From: Piezodorus guildinii
Taxonomy: Eukaryota; Arthropoda; Insecta; Hemiptera; Pentatomidae
NCBI GenBank assembly: GCA_023052935.1
Contig: CM041297.1
Location: 87,443,021 to 87,507,020 of the forward strand
Direction of reading: 5' to 3'
DNA: 64,000 nt
Part shown: in pieces, positions 5,516 to 44,711 of the stretch
Layout: every line of letters starts with the position of its first letter
How positions within the stretch are numbered: position 1 is the stretch's first letter
Made by a program: the position numbers and the translations under genes
Notes under the pieces: model-generated
Databases searched by the model: none
Told to the model about the DNA's origin: nothing
The model's input: only the letters and a program-made list of their open reading frames with translations

Positions 5516-5590
5516 CCCCGAATTAAAAAAAATAAAAGATGATAGATGGAATAGTCAGGAATCAGTCATTTTTTGAAAAGTTTTTAATTT

Positions 5591-5632
5591 TGCCAACGTT
5601 TCGGCTCAAGGTTGTGAGCCATCATCAGGGCA
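5591..5632 (-). ncRNA. Hammerhead ribozyme motif (Penelope type)
   Basis: On the minus strand: stem I strand UGCC, core CUGAUGA, a U, stem II GGCUCA/UGAGCC (6 bp) with loop CAACCU, core GAAA, then C-GUU and the closing stem I strand GGCA. Both conserved core boxes are perfect and stem I forms 4 bp. The NUH cleavage triplet would be GUU. Stem III is reduced to the self-complementary ACGU, as in minimal hammerheads that act best as dimers. The extra U after the first core box is a departure from the textbook fold. Confidence 0.75.
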
Positions 5633-5789
5633 TTACTGAGCCTTGTCCAAGCATAAACTCATAAAAGCATAGTTTATGCTTGGACATGGCTTGGACGTTG
5701 GCAAAATTAAAAACTTTTCAAAAAATCACTGATTCCTGACTATTCCACCTATTATTATTTGGGGTTTATGCTTGGAAATGGCTCAGCAA

Positions 5790-5831
5790 TGCCCTGATGA
5801 TGGCTCACAAGCTTGAGCCGAAACGTTGGCA
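5790..5831 (+). ncRNA. Hammerhead ribozyme motif (Penelope type)
   Basis: Mirror of the motif at 5591-5632: UGCC, CUGAUGA, U, GGCUCA/UGAGCC stem II with a loop sequence differing by one base (CAAGCU against CAACCU), GAAA, C-GUU, GGCA. The loop change leaves every stem and both core boxes intact. Confidence 0.75.
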
Positions 5832-5925
5832 AAATTAAAAACTTTTCAAAAAATCACTGATTCCTGACTATTCCACCTATCATAGTTTCTACAGTCGACT
5901 ATACATCCTCAATAAAAAAATAAAA

Positions 5926-6755
5926 ATTAAAATAAATAAAAAATAATCCCTGTACTGCCTTTGTTAGGGTTAATTTGAAACCATTAACTGTCTCATATAG
6001 TAAGATAATGAATGGAAAAAAGATTAAAACTGAAAGAAAGTTATTACTAACTAAATGTGAAATATTTTTCCCGGTTTAATTTAAATAAAGTAAGGTTGAT
6101 AAGGAGTGAAATGAAAGTTGTGAGTTGTGCGCACCAGATTATTTCAATAGTATTTAACATCTTATAACCTGTAGGTATTTAATTGCAAATTTTACGCATT
6201 TTATCGTGTGGAATGATGTAGCCTTAATACGTGTTTCGTGTGACATGAAATAAATTTCATAAAATACCGTCATGGAAATAAAAAAATATTGTAACACGAA
6301 ATATTACTTAGACGAACAGAACCGTATCCTTGGAGCGAAATGGACCAGGTGGCGGCAGATGTGCCAAGGACTATAGAGTAGAAGATACTAAATCTTGGAG
6401 TTTCGTCTTGAAGTTTTTACCTTCTCACGAGTCTTCTGCAGAAGAAGTTGAAAGATCCTACTCGTCAGTAAGTACTACTGCTGGGAATGTCAAAATCAGT
6501 GGTATATTCTCTTAACAAGATTACCTCGAGAAGTATTAAAATTTGACATAATATAATAACTACACTTCCTTTCGAAAAGAGAAGACCTGTGGTTTACATC
6601 AATAAATCATGAATAACCTCAATGACGTAACTAAATAAAATAAATAAACAATAGGTATCTTATTGTCATTAGTATTTATAAACAAAGTTGCTAAATAGGT
6701 GTAAGAAAGTTTCGTGACTATCATAAATAACAAGAAATAATTTGATTAAATATAA
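5926..6755. other. No recognised feature
   Basis: Mostly AT-rich. A less AT-rich patch at 6310-6530 holds a 61-codon plus-strand open frame beginning MERNGPGGGRCAKDY, with no domain I recognise and no splice or start context to support it. I do not call a gene. Confidence 0.5.
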
Positions 6756-6883
6756 GGGGTACTTGTACTAGCATGCTATTTGTGCTATTGTGCTTAACCC
6801 ATCAATTTTATACAGGAAATAACTGTAGAAACTCGACGGGTTCAGCACAAATAGCATGCTATAGCAAACGTAGTGAGTACCCC
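6756..6883. mobile_element. Fold-back MITE, copy 2
   Basis: Same family as 692-828: GGGGTACT at the left end, AGTACCCC at the right, and long internal arms (GCATGCTATTTGTGCTATTG against its complement). It is bounded by a direct repeat TATAA (6751-6755 and 6884-6888), a candidate 5-bp target duplication. The left terminal arm is shortened relative to copy 1. Confidence 0.8.
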
Positions 6884-6888
6884 TATAA

Positions 6889-7329
6889 TTATTACTGAAA
6901 CCTTTAATGTGATAAAAAGAAGAATAAACAATGATTTTTGTGTCTGGAGCTTTATTTACAGTCTAATAGTCCCCTAAGGGGAATTGAGAAGAAAAATTTT
7001 ATTCTGAGTTTGTTTTATCGATTTCTCAACTGTCAGAGTTGTAAGAATTTCACTATACAGGTATTTTTTATTAATCAGCGGGTAAAAATAAAAAATCAAT
7101 TGATTTGCGTAGCGCAACCCACATAGTACACAAATAGAAAAAATCAAAGCGCCGCAAAAATTCAAACTGATTAATTGATGTAAACAATAGGTTGTCTCAG
7201 ACACTTGACCGGTGGCACATCTAGGCCAGACACAAAATTAATGAGGAAAAAAAAATAAACAATAATAAGAAATAAATTCATTTTGTGAACAATATAATTA
7301 AATAAAATTTACTGCTCATCAAAATCACT
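6889..7329. other. No recognised feature
   Basis: AT-rich. Overlapping 62- and 76-codon open frames lie on opposite strands and look random. Confidence 0.5.
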
Positions 7330-7712
7330 AATATAATTTAAAAAATAATTATAAATCTATTAAAAAAATACATCAAGTAAATGTAATAGAAATATAATAC
7401 GATGAGACAAAATTAATGTAGAGACACTACACTTAGGCAGCACTCCAGTAAGAATTCTAAATGTTAAGGTACCGCGGCAATCTTCTTTTTAGACGCCTCG
7501 GAGGATTATCAAGAATCGAAGAGGAAGGATTGAAACTAGTAGTTAGAGTGGGAATGGGGTTGAAATTGTACCCAGTTCGGGCCAAATCAGCAACTTATGG
7601 AACATAAATGCTTATAACGATGAGTTTATTCGTGACAAGGTAAGGAGCATTAAGGTTTTTACGAAGGATTTTCGATTTTAAGGATTCAATAGTTTAGTTG
7701 AGCCCCATGGCT
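7330..7712 (-). mobile_element. Jockey-type LINE (family D) 3' fragment, decayed
   Basis: Matches the minus-strand family-D element at 10804-11580 over its C-terminal coding end and 3' untranslated end: TTTTTAGACGCCTCGGAGGATT, AATCGAAGAGGAAGGATTGAAACTAG, GTGGGAATGG, TTCGGGCCAAATCAGCAAC, TTCGTGACAAGGTAAGGAGC. Many substitutions and gaps break the reading frame. The left edge is approximate. Confidence 0.75.
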
Positions 7713-8225
7713 TAAGTGAATTTTTTAAAAAGTTATCAATAAATATTAATAACTTCTTTACTGTTATTTAATGCATGCACTTTATATGAGTTTTCAATAG
7801 GAATAAATGTACAATAAATAAAAAACACCATCCAGACCACATCACACATTTCACTCTGTTCAGATACGATTCAACTTATTATTGATTCCAAGGCGTATTA
7901 TTTCCATAAAGGTTCATGGATACACGGAGATTCTCGAACAAATTAATTAATTATTTTATGAATATCAAAACAGGACCAAAATGCAAAATTGTTAATAAAG
8001 AGACCCCTTAACAGAAAGGACTTGATTTATTTTAAATTAATTTAACAAGACATTTGTTTAATATATTTGAGAATCCGAAATAATATCGTTCGCCATTATT
8101 TATACATTCCGTTTTGAAATAGCAACAAATTGCATGAAACAATTTTGCTTGATTCAAAACCGCAATGAATAATTCTGGTGATCGATTGTAACGAATCGAT
8201 TCAATAACAAGTGTGATACAATTTA
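7713..8225. other. No recognised feature
   Basis: AT-rich, apparently unique sequence. Confidence 0.5.
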
Positions 8226-9154
8226 GGTGTGTTTGTGTGTATGTGGTAAGTCTAACTCAAAAACCTGAAGTCCTAACTAGAAATAATATTTCATATTTGT
8301 GTTAAAGAGATTCTACGGCAACTTTTTCAACAAAATCACCAAACCAGGAGAGTCACTTTTTACCATGATTCAAGCACATTTTTACGATTTTATCAATGAC
8401 TGCTAAAATGATTTCCAATAAACTCGCTTTATTGGTGTAATAATTAATGGTGTTTAATATTATAAAGTTTTTTTTCTGATGAAAATATTCTTAGATAGCT
8501 TAGATGCCTGAATTTAAATTTTTTTCTTTCCCTAAAGTATCTTTAATTCTGTAAATTCGAAACAAATAAAACAGATCACCTTATTAGCGTTGATGAAAAA
8601 CGGATAAATATACAAGTTGAAAGAATTCGATAACCAACTAAAGGGGAACAGAACAAAAATATTTTAATGCAACTTTTGTGCTTTTGAAAATAAGAACATT
8701 AATATACATAAACCTTTCGAAAGCTAAAGATTTTATAAAAAAAAATTATCTTATACACAAGCTAGTAAACGTTAACAGAAAAGCCGATAAAACTAACTGA
8801 TTGTTTTAGAAAATAATATAATAGATTTTTTATAAAACACATTTTTCTATGGAATGAATGAATGAATAAAGCCCTTATTGCAAGAATAACATTTAAATTA
8901 TAGTATTCAATTTGAATTCTAATATAAGTAAAAAATAATAATGATGTATATACTCAATAAATGAACAAAACTATATAACTAATGTTCCTTAATTGCTTAA
9001 AATATTTACAATAGATATATTTACAATATTTTATTCCTACAGTTTTATTTTATTAGTTTCAATCATTTTTATCGCTAACTGTATTTGAAAATTCTTTTAT
9101 CGATTTAACAACTGAGGTATGTGAACGTAGTGTGTTGCCCGCACCAGATTTTTC
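8226..9154 (-). mobile_element. Helentron-like repeat, copy 2 (outer end missing, with insertion)
   Basis: Starts at the GT microsatellite (so the stem-loop end is lost) and runs to GTGTTGCCCGCACCAGATTTTT at 9133-9154. The family sequence is broken at about 8855-9050 by a separate insertion (described in its own entry) and then resumes at TTTCAATCATTTTTATCGC. Confidence 0.72.
8856..9050 (-). mobile_element. LINE 3' end inserted in the Helentron-like repeat
   Basis: Interrupts the Helentron-like copy. Its left edge is three AATG units followed by AATAAAGCCCTTATTG. On the minus strand this is a sequence ending in GGGCTTTATTCATTCATTCATT, like the short tandem tails of some LINE 3' ends. No coding sequence survives, so the class is inferred. 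Confidence 0.5.
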
Positions 9155-9399
9155 TTATTATCTTCTTAGATAGGCTATAAAATAAATAAATAACCAACAT
9201 TCTATCTTTGCTCACCTCAACAAAACCATGCGCACAGATATTGGCAGCCATTATCCAAATCACCAAGAAGAGATAAGCAATCTAGGTAAAATATTTTATA
9301 GTGGTTAATAAGCGAGGGTCGATCCGAAACCAATTTGTACCCGGCATTATCTCCTCTCGCTTAAGAAACTCACTTTTTTTTAATATTCTTTAATCTTAT

Positions 9400-9640
9400 A
9401 CTTTATATATATTTTTTTGGTTGTTGTCTATTCTTTTTTTCCTATTTGATTTTTTTTTTTTTTTTAAGTTGTAGTATAATATCTCCTTGTACCCATCGAC
9501 AAAGATTAGTGCTCACCTGCCCATTACCTGTAATCAAGTAGTGTAGACTAAACTGTCCGATCTACAAGAGATCGACAGCAGAATGGGTTACAAGATATTA
9601 TGATGTGCTATCAAGGAAATAAAAAAAGGAAGGTTGTTTA
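9400..9640 (+). mobile_element. Possible LINE 3' untranslated end
   Basis: A T-rich stretch is followed by moderately complex sequence (TCCTTGTACCCATCGACAAA...GATCGACAGCAGAATGGG). It finishes with GCTATCAAGGAAATAAAAAAAGG, the usual layout of a LINE 3' end with an A-rich tail. There is no coding match and no clear target duplication. Confidence 0.35.
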
Positions 9641-10345
9641 ATATATTAAATCAAATTCCACAAAACTATTTAAATAGAAATTTATTACTATATTAAATAT
9701 TTCCTGGGAAGGGGGGAGGGGTGAGATAAGGGAGAAAATTTAATGTTCTAACGGACCCCAAACAGGACAAACAGAGCGAATTTTATTATAGATAACCAAT
9801 TTATTCTAGATAAATAATTACCAGGACATCAAAGAGCTTAAAAAGTAAACTTATTTTATTTGTGAGCCGACGTTTCTACCTAAGATTCAGCAAAATTTCT
9901 ATAGTAATCATCCTAGATTTTGGTCGAAATATAATGAGTTTATTAGGAGAGATTTCTCTGTTTACCGCACTTCTAACAACTCCAATTATACTTTTACTAT
10001 GATAATTTATATATTATTATATAATATATTTAGTTTATGTTGTAGAGTTTTAAACTAATCAATATCATTTTAATAAGGCTTATTTAACACGTTACATAAA
10101 TTACTGCTATGGCACATTCAAGGATTCAGGTCCCAGAAGCGAGTTTAATTTAATCATCTTATATTATTAAAAAATGAATTATTGAAGGTACTAATCATCA
10201 AATATTCTATCGAATGTTCCTTTTTTTTTTTTTTTTTGTTTCTTTTTTTTAACCTTATTTTGATTTATTTCGTAGTTATTACGGACGATTACTATATTAT
10301 GTGACAATCCAAGTTCGAGATAATGCGTATACAACTTCTACACAA
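9641..10345. other. No recognised feature
   Basis: AT-rich, with a G run (9709-9722) and a long T run (10220-10237). Nothing else recognised. Confidence 0.5.
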
Positions 10346-10630
10346 GGTCGCCTGTGGTTTAATGGCTAGCATAACAGCATTATATGCCAATATTGCGGGT
10401 TCGAATCGAGCAGATTCTAGGATTATTTAAATGGTGTAAAAAATCCTTTGTTATACCGTCCTTCTAAGAGGACCTGTTCGGATCCACATCCGGTGCAATT
10501 AGAGATCCCTATCCACTCGTTAAAGATCTCTATTCTAATTAAACCTGGATAGGCAAAATTTAGGAATCCCATAATAGCACCGTCCGAGCAGCTACAGTGG
10601 CATATGAGCGAAGTTAAATAAATAAACAGC
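10346..10630 (+). mobile_element. tRNA-derived SINE, family 1, copy c
   Basis: Head GGTCGCCTGTGGTTTAATGG then CTAGCATAACAGCA (A box), B box GGGTTCGAATCGAGC. The body has TTATACCGTCCTTCTAAGAG, and the segment around GAGATCCCTATCCACTCGTTAAAGATCTC is partly duplicated. The tail is GTTAAATAAATAAACAG. No convincing flanking duplication. Confidence 0.8.
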
Positions 10631-10803
10631 AGTGTTTACTACACACTTCGTCCTGTACCGACATTATTCTGCTACCTTCGCCGTTGCTGTGAAGAAATGA
10701 TCTCTAAAGACGTTGCAATAAAAACTAATAGTTGGTTTCTTGGACAGGCAAACAAACTACGAATTATCTTGTAATTAGCAATCGAAGTGTAAAATAAATA
10801 TTT

Positions 10804-11580
10804 TTTTTTTTTTTTTTTTATTTATTGGAATTTACAACTGTATACAGGAATACAACTAGTAAATTAGATGAAATATATAAAGGCATGAAACACATGTAGA
10901 GAAGCTTCCCAATGGAAGCACTCTAAAAATGATTTAAACTAGAAGGTCTCGGGGCCATCTCCTTTTCAGACGCCTTGGAGGATTGTCAGGAATCGAAGAG
11001 GAAGAAAGGTTTGAAACTAGAGGATTAGGGTGGGAATGGAGTTTGCCATGAAAGGAATGGTATCTAGATCGGGCCAATTCAGCAACATACGGAACATTAA
11101 GATCTTTATGGATTAGTGTATTCGTGACAAAGTAAGGAGCATTGAGGATTTTACGAAGGATATTGTATTGTAGGGATTGGATACGGGAAGAATTCGATGG
11201 TTTAGTAGAGCCCCAGAGCTCTACTCCGTAAGTCCATATTGGCCTTATGATAGTCATGTAGATGAGTCTTTTGTAGTTAAGTGGAAGATTAGAACGTTTG
11301 TCTAGTAAGTGTTGAAGTAGTCGAAAACGTCGAGCAGTTTCTTGTCGTTTAAGTCTTGTATGAGGGTTCCAAGTGAGACGTTTGTCAAGGTGCAGTCCTA
11401 GATATCAGATCTGTTCAACCGGGACAAGAGGAGTATTATTGAAGGAGACAGTAGGGCAGGATGTCATAGGTTTACGACGAAGGGTAAAGGTAATTTGGTT
11501 GGATTTGTAGGCATTTATTTTAATTCTCCAGTTCTGACACCACACTTCAAGGTCTCTGATGTGGGATTGGAGAGTTTGAG
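10804..11580 (-). pseudogene. Jockey-type LINE (family D), C-terminal reverse transcriptase region, 5'-truncated
   Basis: On the minus strand the coding sequence (about 11550 down to 10934) reads through QITFTLRRKP, then YLGLHLDKRLTWNPHTRLKR, then LIYMTIIRPIWTYGVELWGS and IQSLQYNILRKILNAPYFVT. This is the hallmark end of Jockey-clade reverse transcriptases, the part just after the catalytic palm; the catalytic YxDD itself is absent because of 5' truncation. One in-frame stop (TGA, about 11404-11406) breaks it, and the frame ends near LKRRWPRDLLV. A poly-A tail (poly-T from 10804) follows a short 3' untranslated region. It is flanked by a perfect 13-bp duplication AAAATAAATATTT (10791-10803 and 11581-11593). 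It is the best copy of the family in the window; relatives are at 5390, 7330, 36645, 51419 and 59105. Confidence 0.92.
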
Positions 11581-11593
11581 AAAATAAATATTT

Positions 11594-11849
11594 AAAATAT
11601 GGCTTCGAGAAGTTAGTATTCGACTTGCAAGAAAAGTAGTTGACCTATTTTGCGAAAAATTAACTCATTCAAATTTCATTCAGATTACCATCTACTAAGA
11701 TCATCAGATGTAACATAGATGATAAACTAAATCACTACATAAGCTTTCACGGTCTGAATAGTCTTGATTGCCTACATAAATAGTCTCTTTTTCTACCCCT
11801 GAATAAATACAATCAGGCTTATAGCATATAATAAACATGAGTACGGATC
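11594..11849. other. No recognised feature
   Basis: AT-rich flank between the LINE target duplication and the GC-richer island. Confidence 0.5.
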
Positions 11850-12170
11850 ATTTGAAAGGAGCCCACAGCAATCCTACTCTAAAGTTCACCCTCATCCACG
11901 AGTATGCGAGGCCGGAGTTAGACCACATACGGTATTAGCTAAAGTGCAGGAACTAACCGACAACAAAAAAGCCCGCAGTGGATTAAGAAGGGCTACAACG
12001 ATCAACAAAACTGGCAGCTATAGGAAGGGCAGGCTAATTGGTCGGCTGGCAAAGCTCCTTAATTGTTGCTCCCTGCAATAAAGAGAACAACAACTGTTGT
12101 TGTTGCAGCCTTATTGTTATTGCGGTAATTAGCTTCCCTGTTATGGCACGGTCGTCTCCCCAATAAGGTG
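11850..12170. other. GC-richer island, possible regulatory segment
   Basis: Moderately GC-rich, non-repetitive sequence (GAGTATGCGAGGCCGGAGTT, GGCTGGCAAAGCTCC). It holds the near-inverted words ACAACAACTGTTGTTGTTGC (12087-12106). No open frame. A conserved non-coding element is possible, but this cannot be shown from one genome. Confidence 0.3.
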
Positions 12171-13549
12171 TTATTATAATAACATTACACACACACCCAC
12201 AATGGACTACCAAAAATTACCTCCTTCCGTATATCTCTTTTTTTTTGTCCTTTATATTTTCAGAGTTATGCCATCTGCTCAGTTTCCCTTGTCCTTTAAT
12301 CCTTATCCTTATATTCCAAGTCCAAAGTAGAATAGCTGGAGATTGTCCCAGAAATACAATTAATACGCTTTTGTGAACCATAAATTTGTCACATCTTACT
12401 ACTCCGAAAAAATACGACGACGATTAAAAATTACGAGTTAAGGCAGATACTGTTTCGATTTGATTACATCCAAGTTACTGTTAAGGCAATTAATTAATCC
12501 GTCTGAATACAGATCTTGGACACTGCATGAACTATTAACTTACAAAAAAAAATGTAAAAAAATGTTTAGTTAAAAAAAAAACTCTAAAAATAAACTTATA
12601 GTTAATAAATGGTATATTTTGTTTTCGAGTGACCAGAAAAATTATAGAGTGGGTCAATAAGTTAGCTACTTTATTTATTCATTTTAAGAGGTAGCCCTCA
12701 ATTTTTTTTTTTTTATGCAGGTTTAATTAGGAGAGTGATCTTAAACGAGCACTTGACATCACTTTGGCTTGGAACCTTCAGAATAGAAATTTGAATATTT
12801 TTTAGTAGGCTACAAAGTAATAGTAGCTTTTTCTTAACTGGATGATAATAGGCAGTTGAAGGTAGACAAAGTTCACCGAAAAATACTAAATTTATATTTG
12901 TAGCGCTCATGCGAGAAATTAAATAGTTAACTATCTTAATGCAAATATATTTTATTAAGTTTTTTGGATTGTTGTGACAGGTATCATTATTGGGTAGGAT
13001 CGTCACTCCTTAAGATTAATTTTTTTTTTTTCTTAAATTCAATATTTAATATTATTGACGTACATCAGTCACCATTTTTGAAGTTATTATTGATAGTGTA
13101 AAAGTCAAACTTGTAGTAGTTATAAGTAAAACCAAAAACAAAATAAAAAATAATAATAATAAATAAATAAATAAGTAATAAAAAAATGAACTCTAAGTAG
13201 CTTCTTGGGTTCGCTACTTAGCTTTTATAAAATATGAGATAAAATAATCATTACAAATACAATTAATCAAAAGATATTAGAAAAACGATACCGAGACAGA
13301 GCTAAAAAGTGATAATCAACTAAACCTTTGACTTGAATTTAACAAAGCGGTGAGGGAAAAGGTTAGGAGCTAGGTGATGAACAAAAGTTTCTCCTGGTCA
13401 TACAGATAAAAGCATGTATGCACAGATGTTTCCAACATTAATTTATGTGAAAGAACCGGCCTCTTCAAGGATAATCAACATTTATAAAATTATACTTTAA
13501 ATATATATTTCGATTTATAGAAGACTGACATGGATCAATGAATGGCCTA
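12171..13549. other. Mostly unannotated AT-rich DNA with a possible SINE scrap
   Basis: A short block at 12718-12762 (GCAGGTTTAATTAGGAGAGT then GATCTTAAACGAGCACTTGACATC) matches the body of SINE family 1 on the minus strand. Nothing on either side continues the match. The rest is AT-rich with A/T runs and AATA repeats (13140-13190). The 97-codon minus-strand frame at 12713-13006 has no recognisable domain. Confidence 0.4.
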
Positions 13550-13985
13550 AGGTAGTGGTGGCTTTGGCAACTGAGAAGGAGAGAAGACGAATGTAAGATC
13601 CATCGAGTATTGACGCAGAGCTGACAGGGCATGACGGATCTGGAGGAGATATGGCTGCTTGGAATTAGCTCAACAAGGCTACTCTTTATCCTCCAGTCCT
13701 CATATTCCAGGCGCGGTGACAGATAGTCTTCTTATCGCTTCTGTTGACTGATTCCTCCGAGGCCGCCCAGATCGCTTCCATTAGCCCCTGATGGAGCACC
13801 TGCCCCAGGAAATCAACGACCCATCAATATCCCCGGGTCTATCAAATGAAGTATGATTTCCACTTCTTACCTGTCTTCCAGGCCTTCCCCATAGCTCACC
13901 CACGTCAGGAAAACCCTGTTGAAAATGACGGCGGTATCTCTTCCACCCTTAATGACAGTTTGATTTGTTCTTGAGTTCCTTAAAC
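13550..13985. other. GC-richer island, possible regulatory segment
   Basis: About 430 bp of near-balanced base composition in AT-rich flanks, with no repeat match elsewhere in the window and no long open frame. It could be conserved non-coding DNA or a small, unrecognised exon. Confidence 0.3.
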
Positions 13986-14206
13986 TGCAGTAAAGCTATC
14001 GAATTTTCACTAAGTAGCTGCTACGAAATAACTAATTAATCAATTATACGTTGTAGACATTCAATCATCACGTTGTCCGCAATATACTTGTAACCAACGT
14101 ATATATATAATAATAAATAAACGTTGATTTATAGATTTTATACACAAAATTTGTTTAAAAACGCTATTAGGACTTGATCTGCGATGATCTGTAACCCGAG
14201 TCCTTT

Positions 14207-14248
<42 letters not shown>

Positions 14249-16339: not shown

Positions 16340-16351
16340 AGTACTTATAGA

Positions 16352-16975: not shown

Positions 16976-16987
16976 AGTACTTATAGA

Positions 16988-29266: not shown

Positions 29267-29268
<2 letters not shown>

Positions 29269-29692: not shown

Positions 29693-29707
29693 ACAAGATT
29701 AGAGTTT

Positions 29708-32885: not shown

Positions 32886-33032
32886 TATTTTTATATGATC
32901 CAATAATTTTTAGGGAGGTGCGGAACTTAACCTACTACACGAACCTACCCTGTGTGTGTGTTCAAGTTTTCATGTAATGTATGACAGCCTTAGTATGTTG
33001 TATTTCAACCCTTGACGATATGCTTTATTATA

Positions 33033-35469: not shown

Positions 35470-36135
35470 TACGATTTGCCCTCGGCAAACCGAAGAGGTC
35501 TCATGTGACCAATTTATACAGCGTTTTAAAGTGGCTCCTTTCCTCTAGACAATATTTCCTAGGATCCTTTACCAAACCATCAACTCCCAATATCCACAGA
35601 CTTCTGCAATTTAAATCGTCAGTCCACTCCCTCGAAACAATATTGCCCCATACTGACATATAGAACAAAAACTTTTGATCATTCCTCTCTTGTCCGCTTA
35701 AGTACTCTTTGGAATTCACTACCAACTCATATCCGCCATGCTTCTTCCCTACCATCGTAGGGATCATATCCCAGCTGTTCCAGTACCTACTGTCATCCCA
35801 AACAGACGCTCAACAAGCCTGTTATTTCAAATCAAAAAGAAAATTTATTATTTATTGTTCATATTTAACTTAGTAAATAGATCAATTATTATGAATCAGT
35901 TTCAATGTTTAGTTTTGTTCAACACATTAATCTATCAGAAGTTATTTATTTTACTCTTTTATTTTATTGTATAATTTAATCCTTTCTTTTCTTCTGATAT
36001 CGTTGTGAATAAAAATTAGTTATAATCATTTGGTCTTTTGTCAGACACATTGTATATCATAGTTGTACATATCAATTGCTCTTAAGGGACCCTGTCCCAG
36101 AATAATTTTCTTTCTATTCTATTCTATAAAATAAA
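35470..36135 (+). pseudogene. LINE C-terminal reverse transcriptase fragment and 3' end (family C)
   Basis: Plus-strand traces in shifting frames: KRRSHVTNLYSVLKWL, then PNIHRLLQFKSSVHS, then DHSSLVR, then STLWNSLPTHIRHASSLP. The pattern (R...LYKxL, PxxLxxLxxxxSxHxxxTR, then LWNxLPxxIRxxxSLxxF) is the conserved tail of CR1/Jockey-type reverse transcriptases, just before the stop codon. Frameshifts and stops show it is dead. The 3' untranslated end carries CTTAAGGGACCCTGTCCCAG then AATAATTTTC and an A-rich tail; fragments of it recur at 23830 and 27830. The 88-codon frame on the opposite strand is its shadow. Confidence 0.75.
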
Positions 36136-36219
36136 TCAATAAAAATTAAAAACAAAATACATATACAACATAAGAAAAAAAAGTAGATTTTAACAAATAC
36201 CCATAAGAAGTGCCATAGA

Positions 36220-36510
36220 ACGATTTCCTGAACCCTCCTGATAGCCGTCAAAAGAACACCCTCAAGACTTGGAGCACCAAGGCAGAAGTGGAGGACAGAG
36301 ACAAATGGTAAGTTCCTCCTCCACTTGTTGTTCTCCGCTAACAGAATTAACTCTTCAGCCTCCCGTAATAGGGTCTTTAGTCAGAGCTCTTATCGTCCTG
36401 GCATCTTGCGACGCGGAAGCATCTCTGTTAGGGGCAGCGTAAGCGGTTACCGGAGGCTGAACTGAGCAAGACGAATCGTTCTGCTTCTGAAATAACTTCC
36501 GAATTAACCT
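36220..36510. other. GC-richer island, function unknown
   Basis: Balanced, non-repetitive block without a long open frame. Possible non-coding conserved sequence. Confidence 0.3.
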
Positions 36511-36644
36511 ATTCGCGGCTTTAAAAATATATTCTTAAACTTTCTACAAGAATTTGGTAAATGTTCATAAATAATAACAGACTTAAAATATTCTAGACAC
36601 TAAAAATGAAAAGGATACAATGCTGCATAAACGTAAATATTAAA

Positions 36645-36875
36645 TTTGTTTTTTAAATATATTTATATTTAAAGAAATTTAGTAAATTTGATACAAGATA
36701 TACTGTCATGATTCACATCTAGGGATACTACCAATTGGCAGCTTCCCTAAAATACTGCTTAACTAGAAGGTCTCAGGGCCATCTTCTTTTCAGACTATCA
36801 GGATTGTAGAGGAAGCAAGGATTGAAACTAGTGGGTTAGAGTGGGAATGGAGTTTGTCATGACAGGGTTGTACCG
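36645..36875 (-). mobile_element. Jockey-type LINE (family D) 3' end, 5'-truncated
   Basis: Matches 10804-11580 over CTAGAAGGTCTCAGGGCCAT then CTTCTTTTCAGAC, TGAAACTAGTGGGTTAGAGT and GGGAATGGAGTTTG. A deletion removes about 15 bp near 36796. It is flanked by a perfect 12-bp duplication GTAAATATTAAA (36633-36644 and 36876-36887). Confidence 0.88.
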
Positions 36876-36979
36876 GTAAATATTAAAATAATATAGAAAT
36901 TGGTATTAATAATTAATAACAGTTCTGTCAGTTATATGGTCATCGAAGCATCTCAAAAATGACAAAGCCTGTGAAGCTG

Positions 36980-38100
36980 AAATTTTTAATGAAGGAAGAT
37001 ATATTTTGGTCTAGATGTGCAAAAAGGCTGGGTTTAGGAAAATTCTTTCCTTAAGTGTTTTTTACAAACCTCTAAAAAATTGTTTTTCGAATAACTCAAA
37101 GCTATCTCATTTCCTCAAACATTGTGTGCATAATTTAAAAGGTAATACAATTTCTAGCCATCTGAAAGAAAACTATTTTTATGGGAGAAGTTAGTTCAAG
37201 TTGCAGTCAAAAGAAAACGCAATTAACTATAAACTTAATTACTGGTGCCGACGTTTCAGCCTAAATTATAGGCCTTCTTCAGGGCGTTTAGTTGAAAATG
37301 TTGTCCCTATGTTTTCCTATTAAAAACTAAAAAAATTATTGTTATTTATGACGAAAATACTTTATATTTATATTGAAAATGAGTATTGATGATTTACCTA
37401 AAAAGTGTTTATTAATTATGGCAATGCATGCCTCTTCTTGTGTGCTGTAGTAAATTTTATAGAATATAATTAGGATCTGGCTATAAATAAAAACGTCATT
37501 CTTTGTTCATAAAAATAATTAAAAGTAAAACTTTGTGGTAAGAGTTTTTAAGTAGGATTTAGGAATATTCTTTCTCTAAGTGTTAAAACCTTTAAAAAAA
37601 TCCTTTTCGAATAACTCAAAATATCCCATTTCCTAAAATATTATATACACATTTGAAAGCTAAAATGTTTAACCACATGAAAGAAAAATCATCTTCATTT
37701 GACCAGTCTTAGCTTAGATACAGAGTAAATAAAAAATATATATTAATACATATTTGACTGTTTCGTGTACAGGTTCCCTTGGAAACGCTTGTTATTGATA
37801 TTATTTTTTTTTAACATTTCCCAATTAGCACATTCAATAAAATATTTCTAAAACCTAAAAAAACAGTTGTTGTAAAAAAACAGCGAAAAAGCTTTATATT
37901 TATATTGCGAATGAGAAGTAATAATAAAAGTAGTATACAACGACAATGTTTAAAACCTAAAACGTATTCAGTAATTAAGGGTATACATACCTCTCTGTGT
38001 GTGCTATTGTGAATATGACAGATTAAAATTTGGCCCTGACAATAAATAATCAAATGATTCGTTGTTTATAAAAATAGTCAAAAGGGAAACTCTTACCATT
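36980..38100 (-). mobile_element. Tandem pair of an unclassified repeat with a hammerhead motif
   Basis: Two direct copies of a unit of about 540 bp. Unit 1 (about 37005-37540) and unit 2 (about 37545-38095) share TTTAGGAAtATTCTTTCtcTAAGTGTT, CGAATAACTCAAA, CTTTATATTTATATTG..AATGAGTA, and TATAAATAA..ATTCtTTGTT.ATAAAAATA in order. Unit 1 carries a hammerhead motif at 37246-37286; the equivalent part of unit 2 is replaced. The same sequence flanks the hammerhead at 42654. This could be a Penelope-type LTR pair or a retrozyme-like tandem. The class is inferred. Confidence 0.6.
37246..37286 (-). ncRNA. Hammerhead ribozyme motif, slightly degenerate
   Basis: Minus strand: CGCC, CUGAAGA (one change from CUGAUGA), A-GGCC...GGCU stem II around UAUAAUUUA, GAAAC-GUC, GGCA. 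Stem I can form GCC/GGC. The T-to-A change falls at the N of the CUGANGA consensus, so the core is arguably still conserved. Confidence 0.6.
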
Positions 38101-38199
38101 AACGCATATATGTATAATTTCAATCAACACAGAATAAAATATTCGCCAACAAAGTATCATTGTTAAGTCAAGTATCACGCTTTAGTTCTGGTTTAAACT

Positions 38200-38580
38200 A
38201 CGCAAGGCTTTTAATTATTTTCGCAAATACAAACGGAGTTTACTAAACTCTGCCGAAGAACAAACCGAATGGCGAGGGTATAAATATGTTCCACACTCAA
38301 CGAAATACCACACACAGAAGAGACAGAAAGAAGAAGACACCGGTAAGAAAATCCAGTGTGGAAAAAAATTCCGAAGAGATAGGATCAGAGGGCTAATAAA
38401 GCGACGGTGCGAAATAATCCAGCGATCAGATGGAGGGCGGGATTAATTCCAGAGGGACAGACGGAAGGATAAATCTTCGAGATAAGGAACAGAAATAATT
38501 AAACAAACAAGGAAGATCCTCAAAGGACTCGCTATAACGAACGACGAAGTGCACATTTCTTGATGGTGGGCGAAAACTGT
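38200..38580 (+). promoter_or_regulatory. GC-richer island with TATA box and splice-donor-like site
   Basis: TATAAATA at 38279-38286 lies in a less AT-rich, purine-rich island. About 55 bp downstream GACACCGGTAAGAAAATC (38335-38352) contains a consensus 5' splice site (G|GTAAGA). This is the arrangement expected of a TATA promoter with a short non-coding first exon on the plus strand. No initiator motif stands out and there is no downstream coding exon here, so it may be chance. Confidence 0.3.
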
Positions 38581-38736
38581 ATCAAGCAATCAGAAATTTC
38601 CCTAATTACTTTCAAATAAACAGGGAAACTAAAATATTTTACTATTGTTATAAATGTAAAAACTCTCTTTGAAAATTATGCGTATTTAACAAAGGATGAA
38701 ATGTGATCAGTATCTAATATATTGTTAAAAATATCT

Positions 38737-38945
38737 GTGGTGTAGGGCTAGGTTGCCGTTATACTATAACAACCTTCTATGCCCAAGGTTGCATGTTAAA
38801 CCCGGAAGATGCTTCTGGGGTTTTTTAAAGAGAGTAAAAAAATCGTTGGTTATGCCGTCCTTCTTAATGGTACATAAAATGGTGGTCTATTAGCAAAGGG
38901 CTCCCTCCAACTGAAGCATCTTCTGATATGACGTTAAGTTAATAG
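38737..38945 (+). mobile_element. tRNA-derived SINE, family 1, copy h (internally deleted)
   Basis: Head CTGTGGTGTAGGGCTAGG, TATGCCCAAGGTTGCATG, body GGTTATGCCGTCCTTCTTAAT, then a jump to a short 3' part ending TGACGTTAAGTTAATAG. It adjoins the left target duplication of the Penelope-like palindrome. Confidence 0.72.
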
Positions 38946-39070
38946 AGAAATAAAATACATATTAATTTTTATTATAATTAAGATTAGTTTGAATGAATAA
39001 TTGTATTATTAGGTTCCTTTAATTAAAATGATCCTTTTCATTCAACTTATTTTATTTTCTTATTTTTTTG

Positions 39071-39105
39071 TCCCTACGTTTCGGCTCTTTGCCATTCTCA
39101 AGGGA
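39071..39105 (-). ncRNA. Degenerate hammerhead motif, left arm of Penelope-like element
   Basis: Minus strand: UCCC, UUGAGAA, UGGC..GCC stem II with AAAGA loop, GAAAC-GUA, GGGA. Stem I (UCCC/GGGA) and the GAAAC box are intact, but the first core box differs from CUGAUGA at three positions, so self-cleavage is doubtful. It lies about 660 bp after the stop codon, at the 3' end of the element. Confidence 0.5.
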
Positions 39106-39470
39106 TCTACAAAAAACATTTATTTTAAAATTAAAAGATACACAACATTATTTTTTTAAATTGTTATAAATCAATTTACATACCTCTTTATACTCCTTTA
39201 TACACTCTATACAATATATAGATATATATTTTGTCATAATTGAGTAAAATAAAAATTAAAACTATTATAGGCTGACCAGCCCTGTCCTGGTTGTTATCAT
39301 CTACTGGATTAAAGAAATCTATTCCCTCACTCTTAACTATTGATATCCAAACTAATATACACACATATATTGTTTTATTATCTCCTCCTCAGTCAAGTCT
39401 ACATTTATTTTCACAGCCAAAAATTTTTTCTTTTAAAATTCTTTAATAAATTATTATCATACATAAACAT

Positions 39471-39472
39471 AT

Positions 39473-39556
<84 letters not shown>

Positions 39557-39574
39557 ACACATACACACCCACAT

Positions 39575-39631
<57 letters not shown>
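39471..39631. repeat. (AC)n-(AT)n microsatellite inside the Penelope 3' untranslated region
   Basis: About 40 AC dinucleotides with a few variant units, then about 25 TA units. The mirror-image tract in the right arm has different repeat numbers. Open frames of 67-100 codons here are pure repeat translation. Confidence 0.95.
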
Positions 39632-39633
<2 letters not shown>

Positions 39634-39762
39634 AACACATAAACAAATATATTAATATCCAATTAAAAACAAGATAATTTACCTAACCATAAAATTCCAA
39701 ATATTATTCTATTATATTGTTATTTAAACTTTATTCCAGAAATTCCATTTATTTAAATTATA

Positions 39763-40788
39763 CTACTTATTAATTTTGCTCAAAATCTCAGCATAATGGT
39801 CATTCAAATTCTTCGTGTCTGTTTTGTAATTTATACTGTAGTTAATGTTTTCTGATATATATATTGCCTCTAAAATTTTTCTTCTAAAATCATTACTTTC
39901 TTTATGTATTACTATAGTATTTTCAAAGTCAAATTGGTGTTTTTTATTTATTACATGTTGTACTAAAGCAGTCTTATTACTATCTTTTTCTTTATTTTTA
40001 ACATCATTTTGGTGTTGATACATCCTATCCTTCAAGAACTGTTTTGTTTCACCAATATATACTGCAGGACAATTTACACATGGTATTTTATATACCATTC
40101 CAGATTGGGAGTTTTTTTCTATTTTATCTTTTAGCTCACTATAATAATTTTTTATTTTGTTTCTTGGTTTGAAGGCAAAAGTATATTCTTCCATATCATA
40201 TAATTTGAAGGATTTTTTTATTTCTTCAGAAAGTCCCTTTATATAATTGCAGCTTTGGAATTTTTGGGTTGTCTTTAATTTGTTTATTTTTTCACCATTG
40301 CTATTATTTTTATTTTTAGTTCTAATATTCAATTCCCATATGGTTTTTACTATTTTTTTGGGGTAAAAATTTTCTGAAAAAATTTGAAAAACCTTTTCTT
40401 TGACCTTATTTAATCTTTCATTATCTGTAATTGTGATAACTTTTTTGCAAAAATTGTTTACTATATTGTACTTCATATGATACGGATGACATGAAAAATA
40501 GTTAAGAATTGTGTTACTACAAGTTTCTTTTTTGGCCCATTCTGTGCTGATTCTTTCCTTTTTTCTAATCAACATCATATCTAGAAATCTTAATTTGCCT
40601 TCTTTTTCTATTTCCATAGTAAACTTCAATCTTTCATGGTAATTATTAAGAGCTTTTAGGAAATCCCCTACTACATTCTTTTTTATTATGCAAAATATGT
40701 CATCAACATATTTTACTAATAACTTTACTTTTATACCTGAATTTTTTAAAGCATTATTAATTAATTCATTCAATACCATACCTGACAA
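39763..40788 (-). pseudogene. Penelope-like reverse transcriptase (C-terminal half) with GIY-YIG endonuclease, left copy
   Basis: 341 codons, open to the stop at 39763. Residues 1-12 (SGMVLNELINN) fit reverse-transcriptase motif 4, and the frame is open above the Met (YHL). YVDD at about 27-30 is the catalytic palm, followed by a K-rich segment and LRFLD at about 66-70, typical of Penelope elements. Residues about 160-215 form a Lys-rich linker. From about 228 comes the GIY-YIG domain: GMVYKIPCVNCPAVYIGETK, with the VYK/YIG pair, a Cys pair (CVNC) of the zinc-binding type, RMYQH and a downstream Glu (KILEAIYI). Penelope proteins use this nuclease to nick DNA and prime reverse transcription. 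The N-terminal half (fingers and first catalytic Asp) is missing by 5' truncation at the palindrome centre, so it cannot be active alone. Confidence 0.92.
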
Positions 40789-40790
40789 AT
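40582..40790 (-). other. Asymmetric centre of the Penelope palindrome
   Basis: Present only in the left copy, where it encodes the YVDD-containing palm segment. The right copy is truncated 209 bp later in the element. At the junction both copies share GATATGATG-type microhomology (40573-40581 against 40791-40799), which suggests where the two truncated copies were joined. Confidence 0.75.
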
Positions 40791-41609
40791 GATATGATGT
40801 TGATTAGAAAAAAGGAAAGAATCAGCACAGAATGGGCCAAAAAAGAAACTTGTAGTAACACAATTCTTAACTATTTTTCATGTCATCCGTATCATATGAA
40901 GTACAATATAGTAAACAATTTTTGCAAAAAAGTTATCACAATTACAGATAATGAAAGATTAAATAAGGTCAAAGAAAAGGTTTTTCAAATTTTTTCAGAA
41001 AATTTTTACCCCAAAAAAATAGTAAAAACCATATGGGAATTGAATATTAGAACTAAAAATAAAAATAATAGCAATGGTGAAAAAATAAACAAATTAAAGA
41101 CAACCCAAAAATTCCAAAGCTGCAATTATATAAAGGGACTTTCTGAAGAAATAAAAAAATCCTTCAAATTATATGATATGGAAGAATATACTTTTGCCTT
41201 CAAACCAAGAAACAAAATAAAAAATTATTATAGTGAGCTAAAAGATAAAATAGAAAAAAACTCCCAATCTGGAATGGTATATAAAATACCATGTGTAAAT
41301 TGTCCTGCAGTATATATTGGTGAAACAAAACAGTTCTTGAAGGATAGGATGTATCAACACCAAAATGATGTTAAAAATAAAGAAAAAGATAGTAATAAGA
41401 CTGCTTTAGTACAACATGTAATAAATAAAAAACACCAATTTGACTTTGAAAATACTATAGTAATACATAAAGAAAGTAATGATTTTAGAAGAAAAATTTT
41501 AGAGGCAATATATATATCAGAAAACATTAACTACAGTATAAATTACAAAACAGACACGAAGAATTTGAATGACCATTATGCTGAGATTTTGAGCAAAATT
41601 AATAAGTAG
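40791..41609 (+). pseudogene. Penelope-like GIY-YIG endonuclease region, right copy
   Basis: 271 codons from the first ATG (40794), identical in translation to residues 71-341 of the left copy. It holds the end of the thumb region, the Lys-rich linker and the full GIY-YIG domain (GMVYKIPCVNC...YIGETKQFLKDRMYQH, from about residue 158), with a stop at 41607-41609. It lacks the YVDD palm because it is truncated further in than the left copy. Whether any protein is made is unknown; no promoter is visible. Perfect identity to the left arm points to recent origin, gene conversion or an assembly fold-back. Confidence 0.9.
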
Positions 41610-41738
41610 TATAATTTAAATAAATGGAATTTCTGGAATAAAGTTTAAATAACAATATAATAGAATAATATTTGGAATTTTATGGTTAGGTAAATTATCT
41701 TGTTTTTAATTGGATATTAATATATTTGTTTATGTGTT

Positions 41739-41742
<4 letters not shown>

Positions 41743-41799
<57 letters not shown>

Positions 41800-41817
41800 A
41801 TGTGGGTGTGTATGTGT

Positions 41818-41910
<93 letters not shown>
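41743..41910. repeat. (AT)n-(GT)n microsatellite, right arm
   Basis: Mirror of 39471-39631 with a longer AT tract and a longer GT tract. This accounts for much of the 15-bp length difference between the palindrome arms. Confidence 0.95.
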
Positions 41911-41913
<3 letters not shown>

Positions 41914-42281
41914 ATATGTTTATGTATGATAATAATTTATTAAAGAATTTTAAAAGAAAAAATTTTTGGCTGTGAAAATAAATGTAGACTTGACTGAGGA
42001 GGAGATAATAAAACAATATATGTGTGTATATTAGTTTGGATATCAATAGTTAAGAGTGAGGGAATAGATTTCTTTAATCCAGTAGATGATAACAACCAGG
42101 ACAGGGCTGGTCAGCCTATAATAGTTTTAATTTTTATTTTACTCAATTATGACAAAATATATATCTATATATTGTATAGAGTGTATAAAGGAGTATAAAG
42201 AGGTATGTAAATTGATTTATAACAATTTAAAAAAAATAATGTTGTGTATCTTTTAATTTTAAAATAAATGTTTTTTGTAGA

Positions 42282-42316
42282 TCCCTTGAGAATGGCAAAG
42301 AGCCGAAACGTAGGGA
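42282..42316 (+). ncRNA. Degenerate hammerhead motif, right arm of Penelope-like element
   Basis: Exact mirror of 39071-39105: UCCC, UUGAGAA, UGGC/GCC, GAAAC-GUA, GGGA, near the 3' end of the plus-strand copy. Confidence 0.5.
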
Positions 42317-42409
42317 CAAAAAAATAAGAAAATAAAATAAGTTGAATGAAAAGGATCATTTTAATTAAAGGAACCTAATAAAATACATATTGTTATAATC
42401 AATTTTTGA

Positions 42410-42720
42410 ACCGATATGCTGGACTATAAATAAACAAGATGCATTGTTTGTCGTATTTTTAATGTAAGAACAGAGAAATAAAAGAATAAATATCATCATA
42501 AAATAGTGAAAAAAAAATTAATTAAAAGTAAAAATATGTTTTAACTTTTAAAACCTTGATTTTTTTTAAAAAAAATAATGTTTTAAAAAGGGAGAAGTAA
42601 GTTCAGGGTGCAGTCAAAAGAACAGACATTTAAGTATAAACTTAATTTACTGCTGCCGACGTTTAGGCCTAAATTATAGGCCTTCTGCAGGCTGATTGAA
42701 GGAGAGCGTCACAACAATGA
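42410..42720 (-). mobile_element. Fragment of the hammerhead-bearing tandem repeat
   Basis: GGACTATAAATAAACAAGATG and TGTTTTAACTTTTAAAACC, then GAAGTAAGTTCAGGGTGCAG TCAAAAG, match the unit end and unit start of 37.0-38.1 kb in tandem order. The right part carries a decayed hammerhead. It sits directly beside the Penelope palindrome, possibly by chance. Confidence 0.6.
42654..42692 (-). ncRNA. Decayed hammerhead motif
   Basis: Minus strand reads GCCUGCAGAAGGCC...GGCCUAAACGUCGGCA. The first box (CUGCAGA) and the second (UAAAC for GAAAC) each have substitutions at core positions, so it is probably inactive. Stem II (GGCC/GGCC) and the GUC-GGCA end are kept. Confidence 0.5.
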
Positions 42721-44348
42721 AGCAATTAAAATAATGTTTAACGTTACTAATAAATAGTTAGTAACAATAAATAGTTTATATTTATTTTGGATAATTATTA
42801 ATTAATCCCGACCTTAACTATGTAACCTTTCATTATTACTCCTAGTGTATTTTTCGTTTGCTTTTACCTGATTATTGTTTATTTTATTTTATATACTTAA
42901 TAATAATTTTGTATTCAATTATTAATAATTATATCTAAACGAACGATTCAAAGCACAGCTTAAATAAAATAACTGCGTTTAATAGATATTTAACCCAATA
43001 ATTATTTATTATTAAACAGTTTAAATGCCGTTAAGTGATTCCTAAATTACTACTAGCTAACTACATTTCACCTAACTTAAACTAGTGAATAGAAATTAAT
43101 AAATGGCATATATTTTATTTTAATTGAATTATTTCAAGTAAAATATCAATATCATTGTATAATAATTAATATTAAACTGATCATTATGCACTTTATGAAT
43201 TAAGATTAATACTATATTCATCATTACCAATAAATATAGTTATGAATGGTAAGTGCATAAGAATAATTGGTTTCTTTTTTAAGTTTTAATAAATTTTAAA
43301 TTAAGTAAATTACTTAATTATTGAAATAGTTCTATATCACACTAAATCTATTTCAGTAGGAAATATATACTTTAATGCACTTATTAATTTTTGTAGTACA
43401 CAAAAAAATTAACAATAATATACATAATGTTATATACGAGTATATACACATATTTAATATACTTACTCTTAAATAAAACTTAAAAGACCCACTCATTTCC
43501 AATTTACGCTCGTTATTTATTTCACACTACCAAGTTTCTATTACATGAATGTTATCAGACCGGTTTTGATATTTTATGAAATTCTCAAGTGTAAAAGGAC
43601 ATCAGAAATAAATCAAAAACAAAACAAAACTAATTTGTAATAAAGTCTTAGCATTAAAGGAATATTGTCCAAACACGCAATGTGCCACACATGAAGAAAT
43701 TACTAGGACGTTATCAGCAGAAACGTATACCACACGAGTGAGATTGCATAACGTAGTTGCAAGCGAATACTTCAAAACGTCTGACAACCTCGTCGAGATG
43801 CGAGCTAGAAATGCGTTTTAATACAAGATTTTTTTTAAAGAACCGTTTTCAAGAGTGTTAATTTTTTTTTTTTTTTTTTTTTTTTGGTACAATGATATCC
43901 TGATAACTTTTGTTTACTAATCACGCGAGTTTATTTTAAAATAAACTTTTAAACTGTAACTACGATCATTGCGGAGGAAATAATATTTATAACTAAAAAC
44001 AAAACTAATGTAACTATCTTACATCTCGGATCTACTAGAATTTAAATCCTCTGTTGCTTTCCGTAACATCCACCTGCGGCCTACTGTCTGTATAGAACTT
44101 CCAATTGAACCACATCTTTCGATAGATCGTTCGTAATCCGATCTGCATCATTATTTTATCATTACATGGAACTCCATTCTTTCCTATATTCGGAACTCTC
44201 TAAATGTATATCCCATCTATTCAGCCATTAATTATCTATCCATTTTTCAAAGAATCCTTAAGAATATTTGATAATTTCAGTGAAAAACAACAACAACTTC
44301 ATTTATTTTATCTGTATTGTATTTTGCACATTTCAACACAATATATTA
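42721..44348. other. Mostly unannotated AT-rich DNA
   Basis: A long T run at 43861-43885 and a slightly less AT-rich patch at 43660-43800. The open frames of about 61 codons have no recognisable domain. Confidence 0.5.
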
Positions 44349-44430
44349 TTTGTAATTATATGAGAAGATGGTTGGGGGTGCGGTCATAAATTAGAAACAC
44401 ACATTTAACATAAGTGTTATTTTAATTATG

Positions 44431-44472
44431 TGCCGACGTTTCGGCCTACAATGTGGGCCTTCATCAGGGTTG
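44431..44472 (-). ncRNA. Hammerhead ribozyme motif (Penelope type)
   Basis: Minus strand: ACC, CUGAUGA, A, GGCC..GGCC stem II with loop CACAUUGUA, GAAA, C-GUC, GGCA. Both core boxes match the consensus and the cleavage triplet is GUC, the most favourable. Stem I is short (2-3 bp, CC/GG) and stem III is the minimal self-complementary ACGU. Confidence 0.7.
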
Positions 44473-44553
44473 TCTCGACCTGAAGACGCTGCCTAAAGGA
44501 GACCTAAAAACGCTGCCTAAACCACTCCTTTAGGCAGCGTCTTCAGGTCGAGT

Positions 44554-44595
44554 CAACCCTGATGAAGGCCCACATTGTAGGCCGAAACGTCGGCA
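44554..44595 (+). ncRNA. Hammerhead ribozyme motif (Penelope type)
   Basis: Exact mirror of 44431-44472 on the plus strand. The two motifs face outward from the palindrome centre, so a transcript of either strand would contain one ribozyme sense and one antisense copy able to pair with each other. Confidence 0.7.
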
Positions 44596-44711
44596 CATAA
44601 TTAAAATAACACTTATTTTAAATGTGTGTTTCTAATTTATGACCGCACCCCCAATCATCTTCCTCATCTGATTTCTCAACGGTCAACAAAACTCCATAAT
44701 TTGTAATTATA

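Follow-up and report, generated by a model that had tools for sequence, protein, structure and literature searches.

Inverted Penelope-like insertions with a tail at one end in the genome of Piezodorus guildinii

The closest described relatives of the insertions considered here are Penelope-like elements (PLEs). In the available sections of PMC11167929, the Poseidon PLE of Anolis carolinensis (PAc) combines a reverse transcriptase (RT) with a GIY-YIG endonuclease (EN), cleaves and extends both target strands in vitro, and starts reverse transcription from two adjacent internal sites, to which an optional tail of 30–40 bp is tied; AT-rich targets, a hammerhead motif and tandem copies are described as well, and the later integration steps are said to be still awaiting validation. 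For the Penelope elements of Adineta vaga, the accessible part of PMC3846280 reports inverted pseudo-long terminal repeats (pLTRs), head-to-head palindromes and target-site duplications (TSDs), with a tail of 31 bp carried by one pLTR of the inverted pair, and calls the tail optional; inverted pLTRs and short 3' extensions are also mentioned in the part of PMC8969392 at hand. Minimal type I hammerheads of PLE pLTRs, short and without helix III nucleotides, are described in the available text of PMC7761336. The metazoan non-LTR (long terminal repeat) retrozymes are small hammerhead repeats with TSDs when present; according to the same kind of partial source, PMC7229834, circular RNA is proposed as the template of their tandem cDNA, and PLEs are a strong candidate helper. 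We analysed a window of 64,000 nucleotides from Piezodorus guildinii (GCA_023052935.1, contig CM041297.1, positions 87,443,021 to 87,507,020), which contains three head-to-head inverted insertions at 5.5, 39–42 and 44.4 kb, and we followed their families through the genome.

In each of the three insertions, the main arms are 94–99% complementary, the outward end of each arm carries a hammerhead-type motif followed by about 50–80 nt, a TSD of 12–15 bp encloses the whole, and an extra tail of 28–43 nt is present at one end only. The 5.5-kb insertion belongs to family E, the 39–42-kb insertion to family W and the 44.4-kb insertion to family A. Families E, A and D have the CTGATGA form of the motif, and the fourth family, W, has TTGAGAA. 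Inverted arms, TSDs and a tail have already been described for PLEs, and the design belongs to a known kind. An earlier interpretation of the window from its letters (the sequence-only reading) knew of no description of inverted hammerhead dimers of this sort; to call them undescribed would be too strong, since inverted pLTRs, palindromes, TSDs and a one-sided tail all appear in the accessible part of PMC3846280. The results below go beyond this known design in three respects: the tail is exclusive, palindromes of spliced 5' ends occur, and exons form arrays. On the one hand, the available sections of PMC11167929 describe for PAc neither an obligate one-tail rule, nor spliced 5'-end palindromes, nor a circular template. 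On the other hand, the tail of the A. vaga elements is optional in the text of PMC3846280 that we could use, whereas here it is exclusive, and the TSDs here are mostly 12–15 bp. The circles of retrozymes arise from ribozyme cleavage and ligation in the part of PMC7229834 consulted, whereas the arrays here have splice-type junctions and consist of PLE exon units. An exclusive one-tail rule was not found stated in the available portions of PMC3846280, PMC11167929 and PMC8969392; the subscription literature was little covered.

Tails, target sites and orientation of the arms

Each family has two fixed 3' ends, one with and one without the tail, which lie 30–43 nt apart. Among the pairs of arms supported by a TSD, the tail was present on exactly one arm in 44 of 44 (10 in E, 9 in A, 14 in D and 11 in W, the three of the window included), on the left in 25 and on the right in 19. 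When ends were paired across different insertions as a control, 49% were asymmetric (Fisher p = 7e-13 for the 44). Eight of the nine exon arrays of family D that were tested also had one tail, and the ninth (L102/L103) had neither a TSD nor a tail on either end. Taken together, the TSD-supported insertions of the four families showed exactly one tail in 52 of 52. The first-pass tail scores were two-peaked (22–30 versus 4–8.5); two decayed copies with later tail scores of 12 and 13 lie outside the 44. Entry to the 44 required a body score of at least 21 at the arm end, and for same-locus pairs also a TSD score of at least 7.5. Its weak members are the second pair of L012 (9 bp) and L022 (score 7.6). 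Outside it stand L019-A, L019-E, L021, L032-E, L036, L042, L043, L051, L064, L067 and the single-arm copies; of these, L019-E, L021, L032-E, L042, L051 and L064 show asymmetry but no scored TSD. L037 had been considered as a pair with both tails, and a fuller arm scan re-paired its left end, giving a 13-bp TSD and one tail. The initial pairing at L036, which lacked a TSD, was likewise abandoned; a second insertion is present there, and a 16-bp repeat adjoins its tail-bearing hidden arm.

The TSDs measured 12–15 bp in 40 of the 44, which implies that the two strands are cut at this distance from each other; the range over the supported pairs was 9–17 bp. A TSD score of at least 10 was reached by 38 of the 44 pairs, which are partly selected on that score, and by 16 of 25 pairs that were not, the E and A pairs of the window included. 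Of 607 mismatched left and right ends, 4 reached 10 and 26 reached 7.5. The direct repeats were thus more frequent than expected by chance, contrary to a concern of the sequence-only reading. With every insertion turned so that its tail is on the right, AAC or AAA is favoured at the end of the left flank and GTT at the start of the right one. This TTA^GTT-like bias is common to both insertion edges, so that the two cuts have a similar preference. Such a symmetric cut with an asymmetric start would fit an enzyme dimer holding one RNA.

The CTGATGA form of the motif occurs at 12460 + 12402 = 24,862 exact places in the 1.2-Gb genome, compared with 1 + 1 for a reversed-pattern control. The 100 motif places listed lie within the initial 3 Mb of contig 1 (C1) and form 59 clusters, of which 58 were sequenced, 40 with flanks of about 2.5 kb and 18 with short flanks (C1:2501370 was omitted). 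Among neighbours within 3 kb in these listed places, 22 of 37 were '-' then '+' and 3 were '+' then '-'. The W motif occurs at 312 + 323 places (control 0); among the W places listed, 36 of 40 neighbours within 6 kb were '-' then '+' and none '+' then '-', and 72 of the 100 listed places belong to such '-' then '+' pairs. The W ends were read for 10 of the 36 listed pairs (on C1, with motifs more than 2 kb apart) and for the insertion of the window. Thus, the proposal that the insertions are a regular product rather than accidents held across the genome, where '-' then '+' pairs prevail; mostly single-orientation copies with symmetric ends were not what we found, although single-arm copies exist. 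A scan of viral contigs for the motif gave no match. It was also seen at 3465–3495 of L001, a single contig of a Verrucomicrobia metagenome-assembled genome, which is probably eukaryotic contamination.

Anatomy and coding content of the insertions

The arms in the window were delimited by arm pairing and end scans with splice typing, the centres by inverted-repeat pairing, the tails by tail scoring, the motifs by motif search and the TSDs by outer-end repeat scoring. The 5.5-kb insertion (TSD score 11.9) starts after the left TSD copy AAAAAAATAAAA (5526–5537, 12/12 match) with a family E arm of the spliced type and without tail, whose 5' end lies at AGTTTATGC (5538–5659, minus strand; motif at 5595–5628, minus). 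An 11-nt filler (5660–5670), which is the centre of the palindrome, separates both 5' ends. It is followed by an inner direct unit recognised by repeat comparison, from which the ribozyme motif is deleted (5671–5760, plus), and an outer direct unit with leader exon, motif and body (5763–5883, plus; motif at 5794–5827, plus). The 30-nt tail (5884–5913, plus) is at the right end only, before the right TSD copy (5914–5925, 12/12). The inner unit stops near the no-tail site, with the second unit next; it is possible that this reflects a template jump from the 5' end of one RNA to the no-tail site of another.

The 39–42-kb insertion (TSD score 14.4) follows the TSD copy AATAAAATACATATT (38949–38963, 15/15 match) and carries the 43-nt W tail at its left end only (38964–39006, minus). 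The left arm has the TTGAGAA motif at 39072–39101 (minus), and directly ahead of it a presumed 3' splice site, TTTTTTGTAG (39103–39116, minus), whose function is suggested by analogy with families E and D. Further inward, the left arm contains a PLE open reading frame (ORF) fragment of 346 aa (39763–40803, minus), which faces the inverted ORF fragment of the right arm identified by arm pairing and ORF comparison (40761–41609, plus; the arm starts at about 40791). The right arm continues to a presumed 3' splice site (42271–42284, plus), the TTGAGAA motif (42286–42315, plus) and an end without tail at the right TSD copy (42377–42391, 15/15). A long (CA)n(TA)n microsatellite stands 3' of the ORF in both arms (39440–39660 and 41714–41930).

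The 44.4-kb insertion (TSD score 12.0) consists of a family A arm of the spliced type without tail (44361–44501, minus; motif at 44435–44467, minus), a centre of 23 nt between the paired arms (44502–44524), and an arm bearing the tail (44525–44671, plus; motif at 44559–44591, plus). The tail of about 28 nt (about 44672–44699, plus) is at the right end only, and the TSD copies are ATTTGTAATTATA (44348–44360, 13/13 match) and 44699–44711 (13/13). Degraded single-orientation copies related to family A are present at 37179–37284 (minus) and about 42585–42691 (minus); an opposite arm was searched for at the former, and none was found. Elsewhere in the window, an open frame of 156 aa (10934–11404, minus) gave no match in a Pfam search; we take it to resemble the end of a non-LTR retrotransposon RT.

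The sequence-only reading had proposed one design for the three insertions, and the inverted arms, the TSD and the one-sided tail of this design are all confirmed in the window, with some corrections. The duplications, given as 12–13 bp, measure 12, 15 and 13 bp; the extensions, given as 29, 42 and 32 nt, are one-sided as claimed and measure 30, 43 and about 28 nt. The 5.5-kb insertion is more than a plain dimer: it combines one inverted unit with two direct ones, and the motif is missing from the inner of these two. Its A-rich repeat had raised a worry about chance, which is answered by the fit to ends defined by the family and not by the repeat alone. The 39–42-kb copy carries coding sequence, namely RT/endonuclease fragments. 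The outward hammerhead-type motifs are present on all three, with TTGAGAA in W in place of CTGATGA, yet they find no counterpart in Rfam: no family reached its gathering score in the window, and a search of 38850–44800, which does not include the 5.5-kb element, yielded no hammerhead match at E values of up to 10.

Minimal type I hammerheads of PLEs were reportedly described by Cervera and de la Pena in 2014 and by Lunse in 2017, and the present motif resembles these. Judged from the sequence alone, it differs from them by one additional base ahead of stem II in families E, A and D, and by TTGAGAA in W. We take the extra base to be unpaired and additional to the canonical core; W presumably has C3 changed to U and G8 to A, a possible compensatory change that might retain the 3–8 pair. 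Pairing in stem II is modestly supported, as 8 cells were altered on both sides, which was matched by 4 of 500 shuffles; the pair number was not unusual (211 of 500).

The coding tests, all made on ORF fragments, none of them full-length, indicate Penelope-like identity. A family D copy (L046) matched RVT_1 at 1.3e-4 and GIY-YIG at 2.1e-4, and the longer family A copy L041 at 1.0e-3 and 9.4e-4, in each case below the Pfam gathering scores. The D and A ORFs are 60% identical to each other and 33–35% identical to the W ORF of the window. Pfam gave no RT or EN match for the W ORF itself; 11 relatives with 28–36% identity were found, several of which carry RVT_1 or GIY-YIG, and the four named ones are from flies. 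In family E, a C-terminal PLE ORF remnant was located 897 nt upstream of the motif in one copy only (L021). Accordingly, two marks of EN-containing PLEs were seen, namely, on fragments, a single ORF with RT and C-terminal GIY-YIG, and inverted or tandem pLTRs with an optional 30–40 bp tail and a TSD. E and A had been considered as non-autonomous families, which was dropped in view of the RT/GIY-YIG sequence of L041 and the ORF remnant of L021. L023 as a long family E copy was unsupported once further sequence was examined. Family E motifs also occur in tandem at a spacing of about 3.42 kb (C1:36139523–36150293, followed by one opposite-strand motif, and C1:27256701–27260150), and these are probably full-size E units.

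Splice state of the arms and the exon arrays of family D

Upstream of the motif, two alternative sequences are found, each joined at CC-CTGATGA. Long copies have a pyrimidine-rich stretch ending in AG ahead of the motif, and short copies have a short leader (about 25–30 nt in E and D). The unspliced arms of E and D (n = 14) show the order leader, GT donor (GTACGT in 12 of 14), intron and acceptor AG|CC, with introns of mostly about 220–280 nt (one of about 65 and two above 500). In the short copies the exons are exactly joined and the intron is gone. Of the 21 spliced E arms, 19 could be aligned, and they all stop sharply at one 5' limit, A-GTTTATGC, where pairwise identity falls from 0.80 in the last shared column to 0.25–0.39 upstream; this limit is presumably the transcription start. 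Because of the exact exon join and, in E, the fixed 5' limit, the small palindromes are taken as copies of the 5' end of spliced PLE RNA. They look like complete copies, from the RT start to the RNA 5' end. Spliced-type E junctions were found at 6374 places genome-wide and unspliced-type junctions at 2646 (patterns of 27 and 28 nt, up to 1 mismatch), and the spliced E pairs among the places listed are mostly 69–91 nt apart.

The two arms of a pair agreed in splice state: 11 pairs were spliced on both arms, 9 unspliced on both and none mixed, with an unclassified arm in 5 of 25; among the TSD-supported pairs, 9 were both spliced and 7 both unspliced. The centres between the arms (n = 33) were up to 45 nt in 16 and at least 105 nt in 14. 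In D, an ATG comes after the tail end and the frame appears open by eye; a single-unit RNA could therefore yield only such a tiny palindrome. RNA hairpins around the start sites are alike in D and A (z -0.98 and -2.94), with -2.71 in E and a different form in W (-0.48); we did not use them as support.

Family D also forms arrays. L024 has 7 motif units on one arm and 4 on the other, repeating every 296 nt, and six compared units were identical. The array unit of 294/296 nt extends from the acceptor ahead of the motif as far as CTCCAG; at the unit end, the longer copy L047 reads CTTCAG-GTGAC, which is donor-like (CAG|GTGAC). The back-splice-type junction occurs at 133 + 135 = 268 places genome-wide (control 0). 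The 100 junction places listed are spread over six contigs in 31 loci, of which 16 hold at least two places. Among these multi-place loci, '-' came before '+' in 14 of 14 with both strands; 47 of 55 same-strand steps among the places listed were 296 or 294 nt, and up to 14 unit junctions followed one another on one arm. L024 was read whole, and of the remaining listed multi-unit loci the ends of 9 and the centres of 10 were read. The leader exon (exon 1) was contained in none of the 10 centres, and the inner arm ends were scattered around the unit. A linear spliced RNA would give a shared 5' end; with no common 5' end and no exon 1 in the centres, the arrays therefore point to a circular RNA template. 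The junction, CAG|CC at splice-type sites, is not at the ribozyme cleavage site expected of a ribozyme circle. Genomic copies with a back-splice junction are known as pseudogenes derived from circular RNA and are attributed to LINE-1 in mammals; we know of none in the form of head-to-head arrays of several laps. The tail is on the left end (assembly strand) in all 8 resolved exon arrays (L090–L107) and in L024; we cannot explain this and offer nothing beyond chance.

Possible routes of integration

We consider it likely that these insertions arise by target-primed copying on both sides, which begins at two start sites and probably uses one RNA per insertion; the template may be spliced, unspliced or circular. 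The PLE would integrate from both sides at once, with both cut target strands priming cDNA; in the sequence, an antisense copy of the element RNA starts at each edge, which gives the head-to-head pair. The tail and no-tail sites would correspond to the two RT start sites seen in vitro for the Anolis PLE, and one RNA, held by an enzyme dimer, would serve as template at both, each site supplying the copy for one target strand. If so, one tail per insertion would be obligatory. Each RT may then proceed to the RNA 5' end, where the two cDNAs would be joined, often with a short filler. Spliced RNA would give arms that end at the RNA start, and hence the tiny palindromes (5.5 and 44.4 kb in the window); unspliced or read-through RNA would give long arms with ORF (39–42 kb); and the tandem 294/296-nt units on both arms of family D arrays would derive from an exon circle formed by back-splicing. 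The more specific proposal, in which one RNA read from two sites results in exactly one tail and rolling-circle reverse transcription of exon circles results in the head-to-head arrays, we regard as evenly balanced between right and wrong.

Several observations weigh against two-sided copying of one RNA. Sampling is uneven: for E and A, and for most of D, the copies were taken from the first 3 Mb of a single contig. Some insertions with a TSD have one arm only, without tail in L035 and with tail in L038 and L040; the asymmetric L021 and L032-E have no scored TSD. Neither end has a tail in L043, which is degraded and without TSD, or in the array L102/L103; the tail state of L067, outside the 44, is ambiguous, and in L019-A (2598, plus) the no-tail arm starts just 23 nt beyond the motif. 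Paired arms may be unequal in length by hundreds of nt (14 of 33 centres of at least 105 nt), with the tail on the longer arm in some cases, such as the 39–42-kb insertion. In a comparison of 90–114 nt over 22 pairs, no other arm came as close as the partner in 9, another tied with it in 3, and a stranger was closer in 10. The start site did not apparently differ between top and bottom strands in vitro in the available sections of PMC11167929, a result from which exclusivity would not by itself be predicted. Also, at some loci the arrays may possibly stem from RNA of an older array and not from a circle each time.

Some of these points would suit two co-packaged RNAs, one per enzyme subunit, with unequal subunits using the tail and the no-tail site. 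Partner arms that are not clearly each other's closest relatives and arms that differ in length by hundreds of nt would be natural in that case. However, the splice state was never mixed in 20 classified pairs, and two sites on a single RNA explain the exclusivity more simply. Accordingly, we think two RNAs possible but doubtful. Self-priming, in which one strand is primed and the cDNA or antisense template folds back and copies itself, is favoured in the accessible part of PMC3846280 and would account for the splice state common to both arms and for the small centres (16 of 33 up to 45 nt), which are also seen where the arms reach about 0.9 and 2.2 kb (L055 and L046). Nevertheless, a copied arm should repeat the tail, and in 52 of 52 insertions the arms differ by it; near-equal arms would also follow if both RTs reach the same RNA 5' end. 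The exclusive tail thus argues strongly against self-priming, which we consider improbable here.

We consider it still more improbable that the small hammerhead elements are independent non-coding passengers, like SINEs (short interspersed nuclear elements) or retrozymes, that PLEs move in trans. The sequence-only reading had suggested this, and only its link to Penelope enzymes has stood. Thousands of small-type copies, shown by the 6374 spliced-type E junctions, would agree with passengers, and mobilisation of retrozymes by PLEs is proposed in the available text of PMC7229834. Yet A, D and W have ORFs, with RT/EN sequence in A, and E has a remnant, unlike a family without coding capacity; and the exact exon join of the short copies, with the fixed 5' limit in E, gives them the look of PLE RNA by-products, which match the PLE families at their spliced 5' end and form no unit separate from a partner element. 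We therefore prefer to see the small palindromes as copies made from PLE families. Palindromes form a known class of artefact, and a chimeric origin in assembly or sequencing is hardly credible, as each supported pair lies within its own duplication of 9–17 bp, the ends differ by the tail, and the same rule is found in four families.

In summary, the one-tail rule, the agreement in splice state and the exon-circle arrays offer a reason why an animal-type genome has hammerhead motifs dispersed among non-coding palindromes. If true, the exon arrays would be genomic evidence for a retroelement using a circular RNA template. Together, these three findings give sharp predictions for the existing in vitro system and so make the poorly understood integration mechanism of PLEs testable.

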